Source: an uncultured Christensenella sp.
Lineage (GTDB): Bacteria > Bacillota > Clostridia > Christensenellales > UBA1750
Direction: 5' to 3'
DNA length: 41,099 bases
NCBI GenBank assembly: GCA_948468595.1
Contig: CAOKIU010000014.1
Span: 1-41,099 of the forward strand
Shown here: one piece after another, positions 19,030-35,818 of the stretch
How the letters are laid out: the number at the start of each line of letters is the position of its first letter
Position numbering within the stretch: the first letter of the stretch is position 1
The notes under the pieces: generated by a model
What the model was told of the DNA's origin: nothing
Database searches by the model: none
The model's input: only the letters and a program-made list of their open reading frames with translations
Position numbers and translations under genes: made by a program

Positions 19030-20649
19030 ATGACTTGGCAAGATTTCTGCCTGCTGGGCGGCGGCCTTGGTCTGTTTTTGTTCGGCATGAAGATGATGGG
19101 CGACGAACTGGAGCGCGCTGCGGGCAATAGCCTGCGCCACCTGTTGGAGGTGCTCACCCGCAATCGCTTTATCGGCCTTTTGGTGGGCATGCTCTTTACC
19201 ATGCTGGTGCAGTCGTCCGCGGCCACGACGGTGATGGTCGTGGGCTTTGTCAACGGCGGGCTGATGGACCTGTTTCAAGCCGCGGGCGTCATCTTCGGCG
19301 CCAACATCGGTACCACCATCACCTCTCAGCTCATCGCATTTAAGCTGACGGACATTGCGCCGGCGATTCTGCTGATCGGCGTGCTGTTCTATTCCTTCGG
19401 CAAAAAGGCGATGCTGCGCCAAATCGGCGGCGTGATCGCCGGATTCGGCATCCTGTTTGTGGGTCTGGACCTGATGAGCGATACCATGGGCAAGCTGCGC
19501 GACATGCCGGAGGTGGCCTCTTTCATGGCGACGTTCGCACAGACTCCCATTCTGGGCGTGCTGACGGGCCTGGCCGTTACGGCGCTGCTGCAATCCTCCT
19601 CGGCCTCGGTGGGCGTATTGCAGCTTCTGGCCGCGCAGGGCGTCATCGGGCTGGACAGCGCGATTTTCGTGGTCATGGGCCAGAACATCGGCTCCACCGT
19701 CACGGCGCTGATCGCCTCGGCCGGAGGGAACAAAGTCGCCCACCGCACGGGGGTGCTGCATCTGATGTTCAACGTCTTTGGCACCATCCTGTTTTATCTG
19801 CTGGTGACGTTCCTGCCGGTGGCCGATTGGATCGCCTCCCTCTCGCCCGGAGATCCCATGCGCCAGGTCGCCAACGCGCACTTGATCTTCAACGTCTTTG
19901 GCGTCGCGGTATTCTTCCCTTTTATCAATCAGCTCGTACATTTGACCGAGAAGATCGTGCCCGGCGAGGATGCCTCCAGCAATGCGCTGCGGCTGCAATT
20001 CCTCAATGAGTCCATTCTCAAGACGCCGCCGGCCGCGCTTTCGCAGGCCATCAAGGAGATCAACCGGATGCAGTCCCTGGCCTATGAAAACGTGCAGGCG
20101 GCCATGGAGAGCTTCTTAAAGGGCAAGGCGGACGAGGAATCCGACGCCGAATTGGAGAGCAGGGAAGAGGTCATCAACTTCCTGAACCATGAGATCACCA
20201 AGTACCTGGTGCTCATCAACCAAACCGAGCTTTCCGAGCATGAGGGCGTGCTGGTCGGCGAGCTGTTCCACGTGGTCAACGACATCGAGCGCATCGGCGA
20301 CCATGCCGAGAACATCATTGAGTATGCGCAGGCGCGCAGCGTCGACAAGGTGGTTATCTCCGATGCGGCGCTGCTGGAGCTGAGGGAGATGTTCTCCTCG
20401 GTGCGCGAGCTGCTGGACATGGCGCAGGTCTCCTTCGATACCCACGACGACAACCGCCCCTCCAGGGCCTATGCGCTGGAGCAGCGCGTGGATGAGATGG
20501 ATGAGCTCCTCCGCCAGCGCCACATCGACCGGTTGACCAAGAATCTCTGCACGCCGCAATCGGGCATGCTCTTTACCGACGTTGTGACCAACCTGGAGCG
20601 CATCGCGGACCACACCATCAACATCATCAACGCTGCGGATATGGATTGA
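19030..20649 (+). CDS. Na+/phosphate cotransporter family protein with PhoU-like C-terminus
   Basis: 539 residues. Two inverted halves carry the signature QSSAATTVMVVGFVNGG and LLQSSSASVGVLQLLAAQG, and GANIGTTITSQL and GQNIGSTVTALIAS, as in NptA/YjbB-like Na/Pi cotransporters. About nine membrane helices fill residues 1-310. Residues 330-539 form a PhoU-like helical domain (ELFHVVNDIERIGDHAENI and VTNLERIADHTINI), which usually senses phosphate. RBS AAGGAG. It follows trmL and may share its transcript. Phosphate as substrate is inferred from the family. Confidence 0.92.
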   Translation: MTWQDFCLLGGGLGLFLFGMKMMGDELERAAGNSLRHLLEVLTRNRFIGLLVGMLFTMLVQSSAATTVMVVGFVNGGLMDLFQAAGVIFGANIGTTITSQLIAFKLTDIAPAILLIGVLFYSFGKKAMLRQIGGVIAGFGILFVGLDLMSDTMGKLRDMPEVASFMATFAQTPILGVLTGLAVTALLQSSSASVGVLQLLAAQGVIGLDSAIFVVMGQNIGSTVTALIASAGGNKVAHRTGVLHLMFNVFGTILFYLLVTFLPVADWIASLSPGDPMRQVANAHLIFNVFGVAVFFPFINQLVHLTEKIVPGEDASSNALRLQFLNESILKTPPAALSQAIKEINRMQSLAYENVQAAMESFLKGKADEESDAELESREEVINFLNHEITKYLVLINQTELSEHEGVLVGELFHVVNDIERIGDHAENIIEYAQARSVDKVVISDAALLELREMFSSVRELLDMAQVSFDTHDDNRPSRAYALEQRVDEMDELLRQRHIDRLTKNLCTPQSGMLFTDVVTNLERIADHTINIINAADMD

Positions 20650-20680
20650 TTCGGCGCGCCCTTTCGCGCAATACAAAACC

Positions 20681-20720
20681 CCAAAGGGAACATGACAAGC
20701 CGCTGTCATGTTCCCTTTGG
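20681..20720. promoter_or_regulatory. 17-bp perfect inverted repeat abutting a -10 element
   Basis: A perfect 17-bp stem (CCAAAGGGAACATGACA with its complement), loop AGCCGC, directly followed by TATACT (20721-20726). No T-run follows, so it is a poor terminator for the upstream gene; it could be an operator or a start-site hairpin for the downstream gene. Confidence 0.55.
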
Positions 20721-20747
20721 TATACTGGGAGAAAAAAGGAGGGTATG

Positions 20748-21191
20748 ATGATGAACGAGCAAGTTATCGCCCGCGCGGAAGCGATCCTAAACCGCAAGGA
20801 GATCCAGGAGGGGGGATGCTGCGTCCTGGCGCTGATCGACGCGGAGGGCTATCCAACGGCAGCGACCATTTCGCCGGCCAGGATCGACGGCATCCGGCGC
20901 GTGTATTTTTGCACCGGGAAGGGCAGCAATTGGGTCAAGCGCATTCAGGGATGCGGGCGCGCCAGCGTCTGTTTCAATTCCCAGGCTGAACAGTACAATA
21001 TCACGATGGTGGGTGAAGTGGAAGTGCTGGACGATCCCGCGAGCAAAGCGGAGATGTGGTACGACGGCATGGGCGCGTATTTTAAAGGGCCTCAAGACCC
21101 GGAATACTGCGTGCTGCGCTTTGTCACGCGGCGGTACAGCCTGATGCTGGACGAACACGACGTGGGCAGTCAGGCCAGGGGAACGCTATAA
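20748..21191 (+). CDS. Pyridoxamine 5'-phosphate oxidase-fold (general stress 26-like) protein
   Basis: About 147 residues with the split-barrel flavin-binding fold: CCVLALIDAEGYPTAATISP, VYFCTGKGSNWVKRIQG, then ASVCFNSQAEQYNITMVGEV. This is the pattern of GSP26/PNPOx-like proteins that bind FMN or F420-like cofactors; a true PdxH role is unlikely. Three in-frame ATGs (20745, 20748, 20751) follow AGGAGG at 20737-20742; 20748 and 20751 have proper spacing. It has its own TATACT -10 next to a large inverted repeat. Confidence 0.85.
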   Translation: MMNEQVIARAEAILNRKEIQEGGCCVLALIDAEGYPTAATISPARIDGIRRVYFCTGKGSNWVKRIQGCGRASVCFNSQAEQYNITMVGEVEVLDDPASKAEMWYDGMGAYFKGPQDPEYCVLRFVTRRYSLMLDEHDVGSQARGTL

Positions 21192-21672
21192 ACCACGGAG
21201 CGGGCTTGCTCACTTGGGGGATTTGAAGCAGGTTGCGGTGGGGGCGAGGGGGAATTCCCCCTCGCGCACCCCCAAAACCGGAAGGGATTCGCCGGCGGGC
21301 GAATCCCGGAGAATACGCGGCGGCAGGGCCGCCAAACGAGAGCGGAGGGGTCCTGCGCGCGGTTTGTTGACGGTGTGAGAGGGGGCATGAGCGCTGCCCA
21401 ACCGGAAGGGATTCGCCGGCGGGCGAATCCCGAAGAATACGCGGCGGCAGGGCCGCCGAACGAGAGCGGAGGGGTCCTGCGCGCGCGGTTTGTTGAATGT
21501 AAAGCAGAGGGAAGTGCTTACCGGAGAATGCGCGGCGGCAAGGCAACCAAACGAAGGCGAAGAGGGCTGAGGCCCCTTCGCGCTTTGCCTCGGAAGAGCG
21601 CGCGGGAATCGCCTGCGCGAGACATGATTCCGCGACGTGTCCCTCAGGGGCGGCAGTGGTGTGGCACGGAGC
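21192..21672. repeat. Non-coding repeat array with nested hairpins
   Basis: No gene is credible here. A 22-bp palindrome sits at 21244-21265. Two nearly identical direct repeats follow: copy 1 at 21276-21370 (95 bp) and copy 2 at 21400-21496 (97 bp). A third, partial and diverged copy is at about 21521-21566. Each full copy holds two hairpins: GGGATTCGCC/GGCGAATCCC, then CGGCGGC/GCCGCCG (the copy-1 stem is one pair shorter). Open frames on both strands over this stretch have low-complexity Arg/Pro-rich products and no RBS. It looks like a dispersed extragenic element. Confidence 0.8.
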
Positions 21673-32382: not shown

Positions 32383-32838
32383 ATGAAAATCGCCGTTGGC
32401 TCCGACCACGCGGGTTACCCGCTCAAAATCCAGCTCCTGGACGTTCTGCGCCAAAAGGGGCATGAATTGATCGACTTTGGCAGTTACGATCCCGCGCCCG
32501 TGGACTTTCCCGATATTGCAGCCAAGGTCTGCGCCGCGATTCTCTCCGGGGAGGCGGAGCGGGGCATCATGTTTTGCGGCACGGGCGTGGGTGCGGCCAT
32601 CGCCTGCAACAAGACGCCGGGCATCCGCGCCTCGGTATGCCACGACTTGTACACCGCCCATCAGTGCGTGGAGCACGACGATGTGCAGGTCATCGCGCTG
32701 GGCGCGCAGATTGTCGGCCCCACCGTGGCCGAGGAGCTGATCGACCTCTTCCTCGCGGCGCGCTTCTCCACCTCCGAGGAATTCCGCCGCCGCGTGGCCA
32801 AGCTGGACCGCATGGACGCGGCGCGCCGCGCCGAATGA
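32383..32838 (+). CDS. rpiB: Ribose-5-phosphate isomerase B
   Basis: 151 residues of the RpiB/LacAB family. It interconverts ribose 5-phosphate and ribulose 5-phosphate. Key residues: SDHAGYPLK (Asp8, His9), GIMFCGTGVGAAIACNK with the active-site Cys65, and EHDDVQVIALGAQIVG with His98. AGGGGG lies upstream of the ATG. It is divergent from polA and stands alone; a short GC-rich hairpin follows at 32932-32952. An allose-phosphate or galactose-phosphate isomerase role cannot be excluded but lacks any context support. Confidence 0.93.
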   Translation: MKIAVGSDHAGYPLKIQLLDVLRQKGHELIDFGSYDPAPVDFPDIAAKVCAAILSGEAERGIMFCGTGVGAAIACNKTPGIRASVCHDLYTAHQCVEHDDVQVIALGAQIVGPTVAEELIDLFLAARFSTSEEFRRRVAKLDRMDAARRAE

Positions 32839-32960: not shown

Positions 32961-33014
32961 GAAAACCCAGCTGGCGTTTTTCGCCCGATAAAATAACTCC
33001 CTTTTCGGAAAAGT

Positions 33015-33043
33015 GTACCCACAGCTTAAAATGTGGAGTACAA
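33015..33043 (-). terminator. Hairpin at the left end of the cassette
   Basis: TGTAC(T)CCACA pairs with TGTGGGTACA on the minus strand, followed by CTTTTCC. It may end the protease transcript inside the element. Confidence 0.4.
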
Positions 33044-33110
33044 TGTATACTTTCACATATGATTACGGACTTACATTTACCCGACAACTCTTTAAACCGG
33101 AATTTGTTAG

Positions 33111-33800
33111 TCAATTTCCACCAATAAATAAAATATAAGTCAAGTCATATATGGTGTGTGCTAAAATTGGATTCCACAGAGTTTTGCTTTTTTTTAATAG
33201 CCAACAAAGTACAAGTCCCCAAATCAAAGCACTGCTACTTTGCCCTATCAGTCCCATGAAATCGAAAACTCCAAATCTATATAATTTAATAAAGTAAGCA
33301 GGACAATGCAATAATACAAAGAAAACAGTTGATATTACAGCTGCTTTTTTATGGGATACGATTTTTGATAGCGAATTATATCCCCACCCTCTGAAAACAG
33401 TCTCCTCAACCAATCCTACAACAATGTATTTAACAACAACTAATCCCAAAGTGTTCCGGCTGTTAAACCAAAACCCCTTATGATTTATAAACATTCCGGT
33501 GACAACATATCCCAACGAAATTACTATCACTATTATCAATGATTTATCAAATTTAAGTGGCTTATATAATTCGCACTTTTGAATTTTTAATTGACTGTTG
33601 TATTTGATAATGAGTAATATCGCCGGTATCGCCCATATACATCGACTAAAATAGCCATAAATATATGTTCCTGTGTTACGAAAACTGTTTCCGAAAATTC
33701 GGTCTGAATACCCCCACGCATCTGTAATAACTGCCCAAAGTGCAACAAATCCTGACAGTATAAAAATAATCCTTATGCAACTAAGTTGTTTTTTCGCCAC
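33111..33800 (-). CDS. CPBP family intramembrane metalloprotease (Abi-like)
   Basis: 229 residues, about seven to eight membrane helices. Motifs of the CPBP/Abi family are complete: VEETVFRGWG with Glu132, Glu133 and Arg137; FFVLLHCPAY with His165; and LAHTIYDLTY with His215. Members include type II CAAX prenyl proteases and bacteriocin self-immunity proteins. The start is GTG 33800: GGGAG is spaced nine bases from it, while the upstream TTG 33827 has no RBS. Its AT-rich codon use differs strongly from all neighbours, and it is the sole cargo of an inverted-repeat-bounded element, so it was acquired horizontally. Immunity or anti-peptide defence is inference. Confidence 0.88.
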   Translation of the reverse strand: MAKKQLSCIRIIFILSGFVALWAVITDAWGYSDRIFGNSFRNTGTYIYGYFSRCIWAIPAILLIIKYNSQLKIQKCELYKPLKFDKSLIIVIVISLGYVVTGMFINHKGFWFNSRNTLGLVVVKYIVVGLVEETVFRGWGYNSLSKIVSHKKAAVISTVFFVLLHCPAYFIKLYRFGVFDFMGLIGQSSSALIWGLVLCWLLKKSKTLWNPILAHTIYDLTYILFIGGN

Positions 33801-33920
33801 TATACATAACTCCCATATAATTTTCAATTTATATACTTGATTATCAAATATTTGCCTGCAATGTATATTTATAAGCCGGTTTTTAATGGATACACAATTC
33901 CGAAAAGGGAGTAAAATAAG

Positions 33921-33950
33921 AAAGAGGACCGCTCGCGGTCCTCTTTATCG
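33921..33950. terminator. Terminator of the sigma/anti-sigma operon
   Basis: A perfect 11-bp stem AAAGAGGACCG, loop CTCG. The minus-strand T-rich tail (TCTTATTTT) includes one copy of the cassette's AAAATA duplication, so the cassette landed at the foot of this hairpin. Confidence 0.85.
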
Positions 33951-35216
33951 CTATTTTTCCTGGCGACGCCTGCGCACCCGGCGCACCGCCAGCACCGCCG
34001 CCAGCGCGGCGATGCCCAGAATCACCACCCAGGTCACGATGTAGGGGATGCTGCCGTAGAGGTTGACCAGCAAGTCCTTGGCGCCCTCCTTAAAGTCGTC
34101 CCAGGAATTCGCCAGCGCGTTTTGCAGCCGCTGGGCCAGCGTGGGGTCCGCGGGCGTGACCCGCCGCACCTCGTTAAGATACACGTAAACCGTGGAGTAA
34201 TTCACCCGGCCATCCCAATAATTGAGCATGCCCTGGTTTTCCTCAATGAGGAGCTCCAGCCGCGAGAGCTCCGATTCGATCTGGATCAGCTCCTCCACCG
34301 TCGCCGTTTTGTCCATCATCGCGAGCACGCGGTCGTACTGCTTCTGGTAGGCCTGGAGCCTGCGGTCCGTGTCGGTGTATTGGCCGGTGACGTCCTGCTC
34401 GCTGACGCTGCTGACAAGGGGAATGCCCACTGCCCTGGCCTGCTCCAGGAACTCGTCCAGGCGGCTGGAGGGCACGCGCAGCACCATGGATACGTAGCGG
34501 TTGCCGCCGCCCTGATCCATCAGCTTGGCGCTGCCGGACTCCTCGCTGGAGGTGACATACCCGCCCAGGGACGAGACCAGCGAAATTAGCGCCTCTCGGT
34601 CCGCTTCGTAGTTCTCGGTCTGCATCTCCAAGCGCGCCTCGCGAATGATCTTTAGGCCGTGCTCAGCCCCTTGGGTCATTGTCTCCCCATCGGCCTCCGA
34701 CTGGCCGGAGACATCGCTGGCCCTTTCCTCTCCCGCAGGCGCCGCCTGCATGGCGTAACCCTTTTCCGCCGCCATGGTGGGCATGGGTTCCGGCATCTCC
34801 GCCATATCCGCGCTAAAGCCATTGTCCATGCCTGCGCCGGAAGCGTAAAGCGCCGTGGGGGCCTCCGCGGGCGAAGAACTCCAATTCTCCTTCATCGTGC
34901 CCATTCCGCCCATCAGCGCGGTCAAGCCCAACGTCAGGCACAGCGCCGCGGCGATGCCCCCCAGCACCCAGGGACCCCTGCGCCGGAAGGAGCGCTCCTT
35001 GTGGATGCGGTGCATCGCGCCCTCCACCAAATCGTCGGGCGCAAACACCTCCTCGTCCAAGTGTCCGAGCGCGTCCAACAGCTCCTTTTGTTCGCGATAG
35101 GCTTTTTGGCACTCCGCGCAGGCATCCAGATGCTCCCGCATCGCTTCCATTTCAATCCCGGACAGGCTCTCGTCCAAGTAACCGTCCAGGTTCTGCAAAA
35201 ACAACGCACATTTCAT
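33951..35216 (-). CDS. Anti-sigma factor with zinc finger and DUF4349 extracellular domain
   Basis: 421 residues. Residues 1-60 form an anti-sigma zinc-binding domain with HLDACAEC (His29, Cys33, Cys36). A membrane helix lies at about 85-105 (WVLGGIAAALCLTLGL). A low-complexity Met/Ala/Glu linker leads to a DUF4349 domain (about 185-390: ARLEMQTENYEADREALISL, YVSMVLRVPSSRLDEFL, with a long coiled coil) and a second membrane helix near the C-terminus. ATG 35216 follows GGGAGGGAG and gives the zinc-finger start. It lies 26 nt after the ECF sigma gene and most likely holds that sigma factor inactive until an outside signal acts on the DUF4349 part. Confidence 0.9.
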   Translation of the reverse strand: MKCALFLQNLDGYLDESLSGIEMEAMREHLDACAECQKAYREQKELLDALGHLDEEVFAPDDLVEGAMHRIHKERSFRRRGPWVLGGIAAALCLTLGLTALMGGMGTMKENWSSSPAEAPTALYASGAGMDNGFSADMAEMPEPMPTMAAEKGYAMQAAPAGEERASDVSGQSEADGETMTQGAEHGLKIIREARLEMQTENYEADREALISLVSSLGGYVTSSEESGSAKLMDQGGGNRYVSMVLRVPSSRLDEFLEQARAVGIPLVSSVSEQDVTGQYTDTDRRLQAYQKQYDRVLAMMDKTATVEELIQIESELSRLELLIEENQGMLNYWDGRVNYSTVYVYLNEVRRVTPADPTLAQRLQNALANSWDDFKEGAKDLLVNLYGSIPYIVTWVVILGIAALAAVLAVRRVRRRRQEK

Positions 35217-35242
35217 GCTCTTTCTCCCTCCCTTCCGTACCA

Positions 35243-35818
35243 TTAGACGCGCTTTTTTGCGGAAAGTTCCGCTTCCTGCTCCAACACTCGCCGCAACGCT
35301 GCGCGCGATCTGGATATGCGCGATTTAACGGTATTGAGGTTTAAACCGAGGATTTCGGCGATCTGTTCATAGGGCAAGCCCTGCACGTCCCGCAGAACCA
35401 GGGCCGCGCGCTGCTCCGGGCCGAGGGATGCAATCGCGCTTTCCAGCGTGCGCCGCAGCTCTTGGCGGTCCAGCGCCTTTTCCGGCGTCTCCTGGGGGTC
35501 CACGGGTTCAAATCCACTCTTGCGCATCTCCTGTATCGACTCGCTGTGGTCGTTGCGCCGCTTGCGCAGTTCGTCCAAGCAGACGTTGCTGGTGACGCGA
35601 TAGAGCCAGGTGGAAAAGCGCGATTGTCCCTTGTAGGTCGATAGGGAGCGCCAGGCGCGCACAAGAGCCTCCTGCGCCATATCGGCCGCATCCTGTTCGT
35701 TGCCCATCATGCGCAGGCAGAGGCGATAGGTGACGTCGGTGTATGGCCGAATGAGTTCCTCAAACGCGCGCTCGTCGCCGCGCGCGGCCCGCTTCAGATT
35801 CAGCTGATCGGTATCCAT
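35243..35818 (-). CDS. ECF-type RNA polymerase sigma factor
   Basis: 191 residues. Region 2 is about 12-90 (AFEELIRPYTDVTYRLCLRM, then DMAQEALVRAWRSLSTYKG and FSTWLYRVTSNVCLDELRKR); region 4 is about 125-185 (LGPEQRAALVLRDVQGLPY, EIAEILG-like helix-turn-helix LNLNTVKSRISRSRAALR). ATG 35818 is preceded by GGGAGGGG; the frame extends upstream without a good RBS. It forms an operon with its membrane anti-sigma factor. The target promoters, probably including its own, cannot be seen clearly. Confidence 0.93.
   Translation of the reverse strand: MDTDQLNLKRAARGDERAFEELIRPYTDVTYRLCLRMMGNEQDAADMAQEALVRAWRSLSTYKGQSRFSTWLYRVTSNVCLDELRKRRNDHSESIQEMRKSGFEPVDPQETPEKALDRQELRRTLESAIASLGPEQRAALVLRDVQGLPYEQIAEILGLNLNTVKSRISRSRAALRRVLEQEAELSAKKRV

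Follow-up and report, generated by a model that had tools for sequence, protein, structure and literature searches.

The insert at positions 32997–33911 of the window (the whole stretch of DNA analysed, 41,099 nucleotides long) can be read, with a probability of about 0.88, as a mobile insertion cassette (MIC), in other words a DNA transposon that is non-autonomous, is moved by a DDE-type transposase acting in trans and carries a single, exchangeable cargo gene. MICs are defined by inverted repeats, the lack of a transposase, a passenger gene, a target duplication and movement in trans (PMC3913671; PMC3129680). The insert has paired inverted repeats, a passenger gene without a transposase, and a target duplication. 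Its features and neighbours are as follows.

32383–32838, plus strand: left neighbour, RpiB-like sugar-phosphate isomerase (gene named by inspection)
32989–32996, no strand: left copy of the target-site duplication TAAAATAA (from the sequence, exact 8/8)
32997–33911, minus strand: whole cassette, 915 bp; its sense, from head to tail, is that of the minus strand
32997–33021, plus strand: TAIL inverted repeat CTCCCTTTTCGGAAAAGTGTACCCA, reading inward from the left end (arm match and end pattern)
32999–33108, minus strand: conserved tail region, 3′ of the cargo gene (80–82% identity with the tails of L132 and L050)
33111–33800, minus strand: cargo CDS, predicted CPBP/Rce1-like intramembrane protease (PF02517, motifs and GTG start)
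33820–33911, minus strand: conserved HEAD region with promoter-like sequence (87% identity with the heads of L050 and L132)
33887–33911, minus strand: HEAD inverted repeat CTCCCTTTTCGGAATTGTGTATCCA, reading inward from the right end (arm match and end pattern)
33912–33919, no strand: right copy of the target-site duplication TAAAATAA (from the sequence, exact 8/8)
33951–35243, minus strand: right neighbour, putative DUF4349-like membrane protein (gene named by inspection)

The first letters of the insert, as read from the sequence, are CTCCC. The 26-bp terminal inverted repeats of the original prediction are confirmed: the arms at 32996–33021 and 33887–33912 are each 26 nt long and are complementary at 23 of 26 positions (88%). 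The flanking duplication had been given as AAAATA, but the actual repeat is the 8-bp TAAAATAA, which is exact at all eight positions. The insert measures 915 bp (917 bp in the original prediction), and its GC content is low, at 0.34 for the cassette compared with 0.62 for its flanks. A terminator-like hairpin of the DUF4349-like gene (33921–33946) abuts the insertion. A preference for terminators was tested and not supported: the hairpins beside the target were no stronger than those at AT-rich control sites (38 sites, Mann–Whitney p 0.30).

The CPBP gene is the sole substantial gene in the insert, which contains no transposase ORF, as had been predicted. Its product, encoded on the minus strand, matches PF02517 (Rce1-like/CPBP) with an E value of 8.8e-18 in a Pfam scan, and the motifs read from the translation are intact: EETVFR fits EExxxR, LLHCP supplies the downstream H, and HTIYD is of the HxxxD type. 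Judged by the PF02517 match, the catalytic EExxxR and the downstream H, the cargo is predicted to be a CPBP/Rce1-like intramembrane protease. The catalogued ORF of 238 aa begins at TTG 33827, inside the promoter-like region; an alternative GTG at 33800, preceded by GGGAG, gives 229 aa and is the likelier start. From its family membership, one might guess at a role in self-immunity or in the processing of membrane peptides. A PADLOC analysis of cassette cargos returned few and weak matches, and none for the window CPBP protein.

The presence of a CPBP protease had been singled out as noteworthy. The gene is indeed there, but it is nothing special as a cargo, being one among many that are interchangeable. 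A second CPBP cassette (L122) encodes a protein just 22% identical to that of the window, and two further cassettes, L050 and L132, have 92 bp of head (87% identity) and 106–110 bp of tail (80–82%) in common with the window cassette around a 92-aa cargo unrelated to CPBP. Cargo proteins were scanned individually in 31 cases, and 42 were included in a pooled scan. The cargos comprise NUDIX proteins, cytidine deaminases, GNAT acetyltransferases, a histidine phosphatase, a methyltransferase, an APH-like kinase, DUF4291, DUF3784, DUF5301 lipoproteins and the two CPBP proteases; many have no match at all. The polymorphic-toxin immunity domains Imm19, Imm68 and Imm1 occur as sole cargo (in L089, in L157 and in another cassette, from alignment A4, respectively), and these cassettes are mobile orphan immunity genes. 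The prediction that copies with different cargo could be found is thus borne out: dozens of cassettes share these ends but not their cargo.

Among the loci examined, 55 elements of 159–1446 bp, in 37 sequence clusters, have both ends. They have a single architecture, in which a polar head with a promoter-like region is followed by the cargo gene in head-to-tail sense and then by the tail. The inverted ends are 25–26 bp long with the signature CTCCCTTTTCGGA(A/T)NNGTGT; the head type CTCCCTTTTCGGAATTGTGTACCCA is paired with the tail type CTCCCTTTTCGGAAAAGTGTTCCCA, which is also the family tail consensus, in 54 of the 55, the remaining one being ambiguous. The longest sense ORF runs from head to tail except in phage-type and cargo-less elements. 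Within about 90 bp, the heads contain a promoter-like TTGCAA-17-TATAAT that is kept across unrelated cargo, and the tails are more loosely conserved, over about 110 bp. In the window head, a GATAAT ends at 33840, and the spacer is some 7 nt shorter than in the family consensus, so this head may be a weak promoter. Cassette GC is 0.35 (sd 0.03), although that of the flanks spans 0.28–0.65. The family also includes cargo-less members (L053, 119 bp; L140, 159 bp; L129, 243 bp), a nested insertion (L065) and two composite units (L131:5926–7413 and L146:342–1997), each of which has a third end inside and a target duplication on the outer head and tail.

Copies within the window's own genome were sought by DNA search and by a search for the end pattern. 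On contig C15, a cassette with the same ends and a 7/8 target duplication carries a NUDIX gene (20561–21234; E 8.6e-21). At the end of contig C7 there is a head followed by the start of a gene, the latter 88% identical over 34 aa to a cytidine-deaminase cassette found elsewhere, and contig C16 holds a tail part that matches this partial cytidine-deaminase-like cassette. C7 also holds an older copy with pyrophosphatase-like cargo (55775–56309) and a lone head at 59424. Because NUDIX, deaminase-like, pyrophosphatase-like and CPBP copies were all found, several cassettes with differing cargo coexist in this one genome.

In a scan of 84,980 species genomes, the ends recur at at least 119 places, almost all of them in Lachnospiraceae and other gut Clostridia; four viral contigs carry them as well. 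The query was the exact 21-nt core of the end, which makes the counts lower bounds and, in part, selects for well-conserved ends. In an even sample from one family, ends with at most two mismatches were present in 20 of 397 genomes, so the cassette family is widespread yet patchy and low-copy; a reversed-pattern control gave no matches in the 11 genomes of the family. The head consensus had no match in the plasmid and phage nucleotide collections. Several of the records come from metagenome binning and may be misnamed. Two records were not used: L077 (titled Proteobacteria, with a GC-type flank, ACCATGGC), which is probably a chance match to the pattern, and L057 (titled Muribaculaceae), a possible binning error.

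Tail-type ends also occur singly or in tandem in viral and prophage contigs, where they are flanked by small ORFs in the vicinity of repressor-like genes (L105:1805–3941; L163:4705 and 5523; L152:962; L165:7732; L248:7365; L252:8125). In L105, four lie in tandem, about 0.6–0.9 kb apart. Separately, a variant end, CTCCCTTTTCGGATTTGTGTTCCCA, occurs about 63 times in genome G108 (L174–L182, L206–L211), bounding MITE-like elements of about 84–560 bp. Some of these elements have 8-bp duplications, such as TTTTACAA in L178, and together they are a MITE-like sister family in one genome. A pattern search of G108 for an autonomous element yielded only these MITE-like relatives.

Several observations point to movement of the cassettes. 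At the 52 sites with both flanks, the 8-bp duplication is perfect in 32 and matches at 7/8 or better in 40, compared with 0.9 and 2.3 for shuffled flanks; A+T makes up 96% of the duplicated sequence. Copies of one cassette that are 97–99.9% identical are found in different genomes, at different sites and with different duplications. A 768-bp cassette, for example, is present in Lachnospiraceae A2 and, at 98.8% identity, in L084, a record titled Erysipelotrichales. The exact empty site for the A2 copy, whose duplication is TCTCATTT, exists in another species, G430, which matches at 52 of 52 positions across the junction and has a single TCTCATTT. G430 holds a 97% copy of the same cassette elsewhere, with the duplication ATTTTATA, and has cassettes at three more places, with different cargo at each. 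On these sequences, the cassettes show evidence of recent movement between species. The empty site that had been anticipated was found exactly for this sister cassette; at the window locus, the same two genes stand 75–92 bp apart in three congeners, which lack the insert and whose intergenic sequence is too diverged to display the exact empty target.

We infer a DDE-type transposase acting in trans from the 8-bp duplications, the inverted ends and the exact empty sites, which together are the signature of DDE-type transposition; the target duplications also disfavour homologous recombination of flanking genes as the sole route. The enzyme would recognise both ends, excise the cassette and paste it into an AT-rich 8-bp target, which would be duplicated in the process. 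The head would supply the promoter-like region, from which the cargo may be expressed, and the tail would close the cargo gene, so that the conserved head and tail, of about 100 bp each, would form a chassis that is reused as the gene between them is exchanged. Since the duplications of L131 and L146 bracket the outer ends, the head and tail of neighbouring cassettes appear to have moved together, taking along all that lay between them, and joint transposition of one cassette's head with its neighbour's tail is a plausible way of capturing new cargo. The result would be a pool of single-gene cassettes common to gut Clostridia, with some members also in phage contigs.

A search for the mobiliser covered the IS families ISL3, DDE_Tnp_1 and IS256. 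ISL3 was sought in 14 genomes, DDE_Tnp_1 in three and IS256 in six; the homologues found lack these ends, and none of the three was found in the window's genome. In the searched genomes, then, neither ISL3 nor IS256 has the matching ends by which the cassettes could be assigned to it, and the IS with matching ends that the original prediction called for was not among the loci of the three families. No locus examined has paired ends 1.7–7 kb apart, and none has a transposase between such ends at up to 7 kb. Pfam scans of the ORFs beside unpaired ends and of the cargo proteins revealed no transposase for the ends, and there was no transposase family among the matches shown for the 42 cargo proteins. 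The proposal of an MIC moved in trans is thus upheld as regards copies, duplications and empty sites, but not as regards a transposase with matching ends.

Three other explanations were weighed. That the inverted repeat arose by chance around an ordinary gene of low GC is so improbable as to be negligible: the idea has nothing in its favour beyond the missing transposase, and it is refuted by the many other copies, which have target duplications and varied cargo, by an empty site and by the congeners without the insert. The original prediction had named the lack of any other copy and of any empty site as the mark of such a dyad, but other copies were found, and so was an exact empty site for a sister cassette. 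A more substantial possibility, though in our view an unlikely one, is that the cassettes are MITE-like deletion derivatives of one IS, which gained host genes by accident and are moved by a known IS, with ISL3 as the best guess. ISL3 duplicates 8-bp AT-rich targets; its ends (GGCTCTTT...) distantly resemble CTCCCTTT, and an ISL3-associated inverted repeat, TGGCTCTTTGTCAAATTAG, is present in L173. The cargo-less members and the variant MITE-like ends of G108 also speak for such derivatives. The resemblance of the ends, however, amounts to just about five positions; moreover, the window's genome has no ISL3, and the ISL3 loci found elsewhere do not bear these ends.

According to the third explanation, a site-specific recombinase acts on the cassettes, whose ends would be recombination sites comparable to attC, as in integrons. 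Each unit does have one promoter-like region and one gene in a fixed orientation, its cargo families are reminiscent of integron cassettes, and the tandem tail-type ends of prophage L105 look like an array. The L105 repeats are nevertheless solo tails within a prophage region, for which reason we rejected them as an integron-like array, and nowhere do whole cassettes form an array in the loci examined. Inverted ends and 8-bp duplications at dispersed AT-rich sites point instead to DDE-type transposition, as do clean empty sites with a single copy of the duplication. In its simple form this explanation is already refuted by the target duplications, and overall we consider it very improbable. 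The MIC reading, by comparison, could be extended to a system of single-gene exchange among gut Clostridia and phages, with a polar chassis, a transposase that is either undescribed or encoded only by ICEs or phages, and capture by a head and a neighbouring tail, making it the transposon-based counterpart of the integron; we put this forward tentatively, as somewhat doubtful in its entirety.

Transposase-less one-gene cassettes have previously been scattered examples such as MIC231 and mic-qnrD, and what we describe here is one family at more than a hundred places. Gut bacteria seem to exchange single genes by means of an enzyme yet to be found, and the family would account for the spread of orphan single genes among gut Firmicutes. 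Interbacterial immunity proteins are among its cargo, as are enzyme families of the resistance type, and the 25-bp signature is an easy handle for spotting such cargo in any genome. It also poses a concrete question, namely which enzyme moves the cassettes. In the literature covered, which excludes preprints and most subscription papers, we found no paper with the end sequence and no account of cassettes of this kind from gut Clostridia or Lachnospiraceae; a MIC family in gut Clostridia is apparently hitherto undescribed.

The cassettes resemble several known systems in part. Like integron cassettes, they have one gene per unit, exchangeable cargo and a uniform orientation; they differ in having inverted repeats, target duplications, dispersed sites and an internal promoter-like region, and no integrase or attC array was identified (attC being judged without a formal model). 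Transporter IS and IS1595-type IS also hold passenger genes between IS-like ends, but retain a transposase gene, which is absent from all the cassettes here. MITEs are similarly short and non-autonomous with inverted ends, and this family too has cargo-less members, whereas most of its members carry an intact-looking gene in a fixed orientation. The closest match is with MICs, exemplified by MIC231 of Bacillus cereus, mic-qnrD of Proteeae and mic-qnrS2 of Aeromonas (PMC3913671; PMC3129680), in which inverted repeats and a target duplication likewise enclose a passenger gene with its own promoter (promoter-like here) and no transposase. The ends of MIC231 are those of IS231A, and its transposase is known, whereas no matching transposase was found here; in mic-qnrD the duplication is 2 bp and the ends are 24 bp long, in place of the 8-bp duplications and distinct CTCCCTTTTCGGAA end of this family. 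In contrast to the MICs described so far, the present cassettes have a head and tail that are both conserved and polar, hosts among the gut Clostridia, and unrelated cargos by the dozen. What is new is thus a mobiliser not found among the three IS families searched, the exchangeable cargo, the polar promoter head, and the size of the family.
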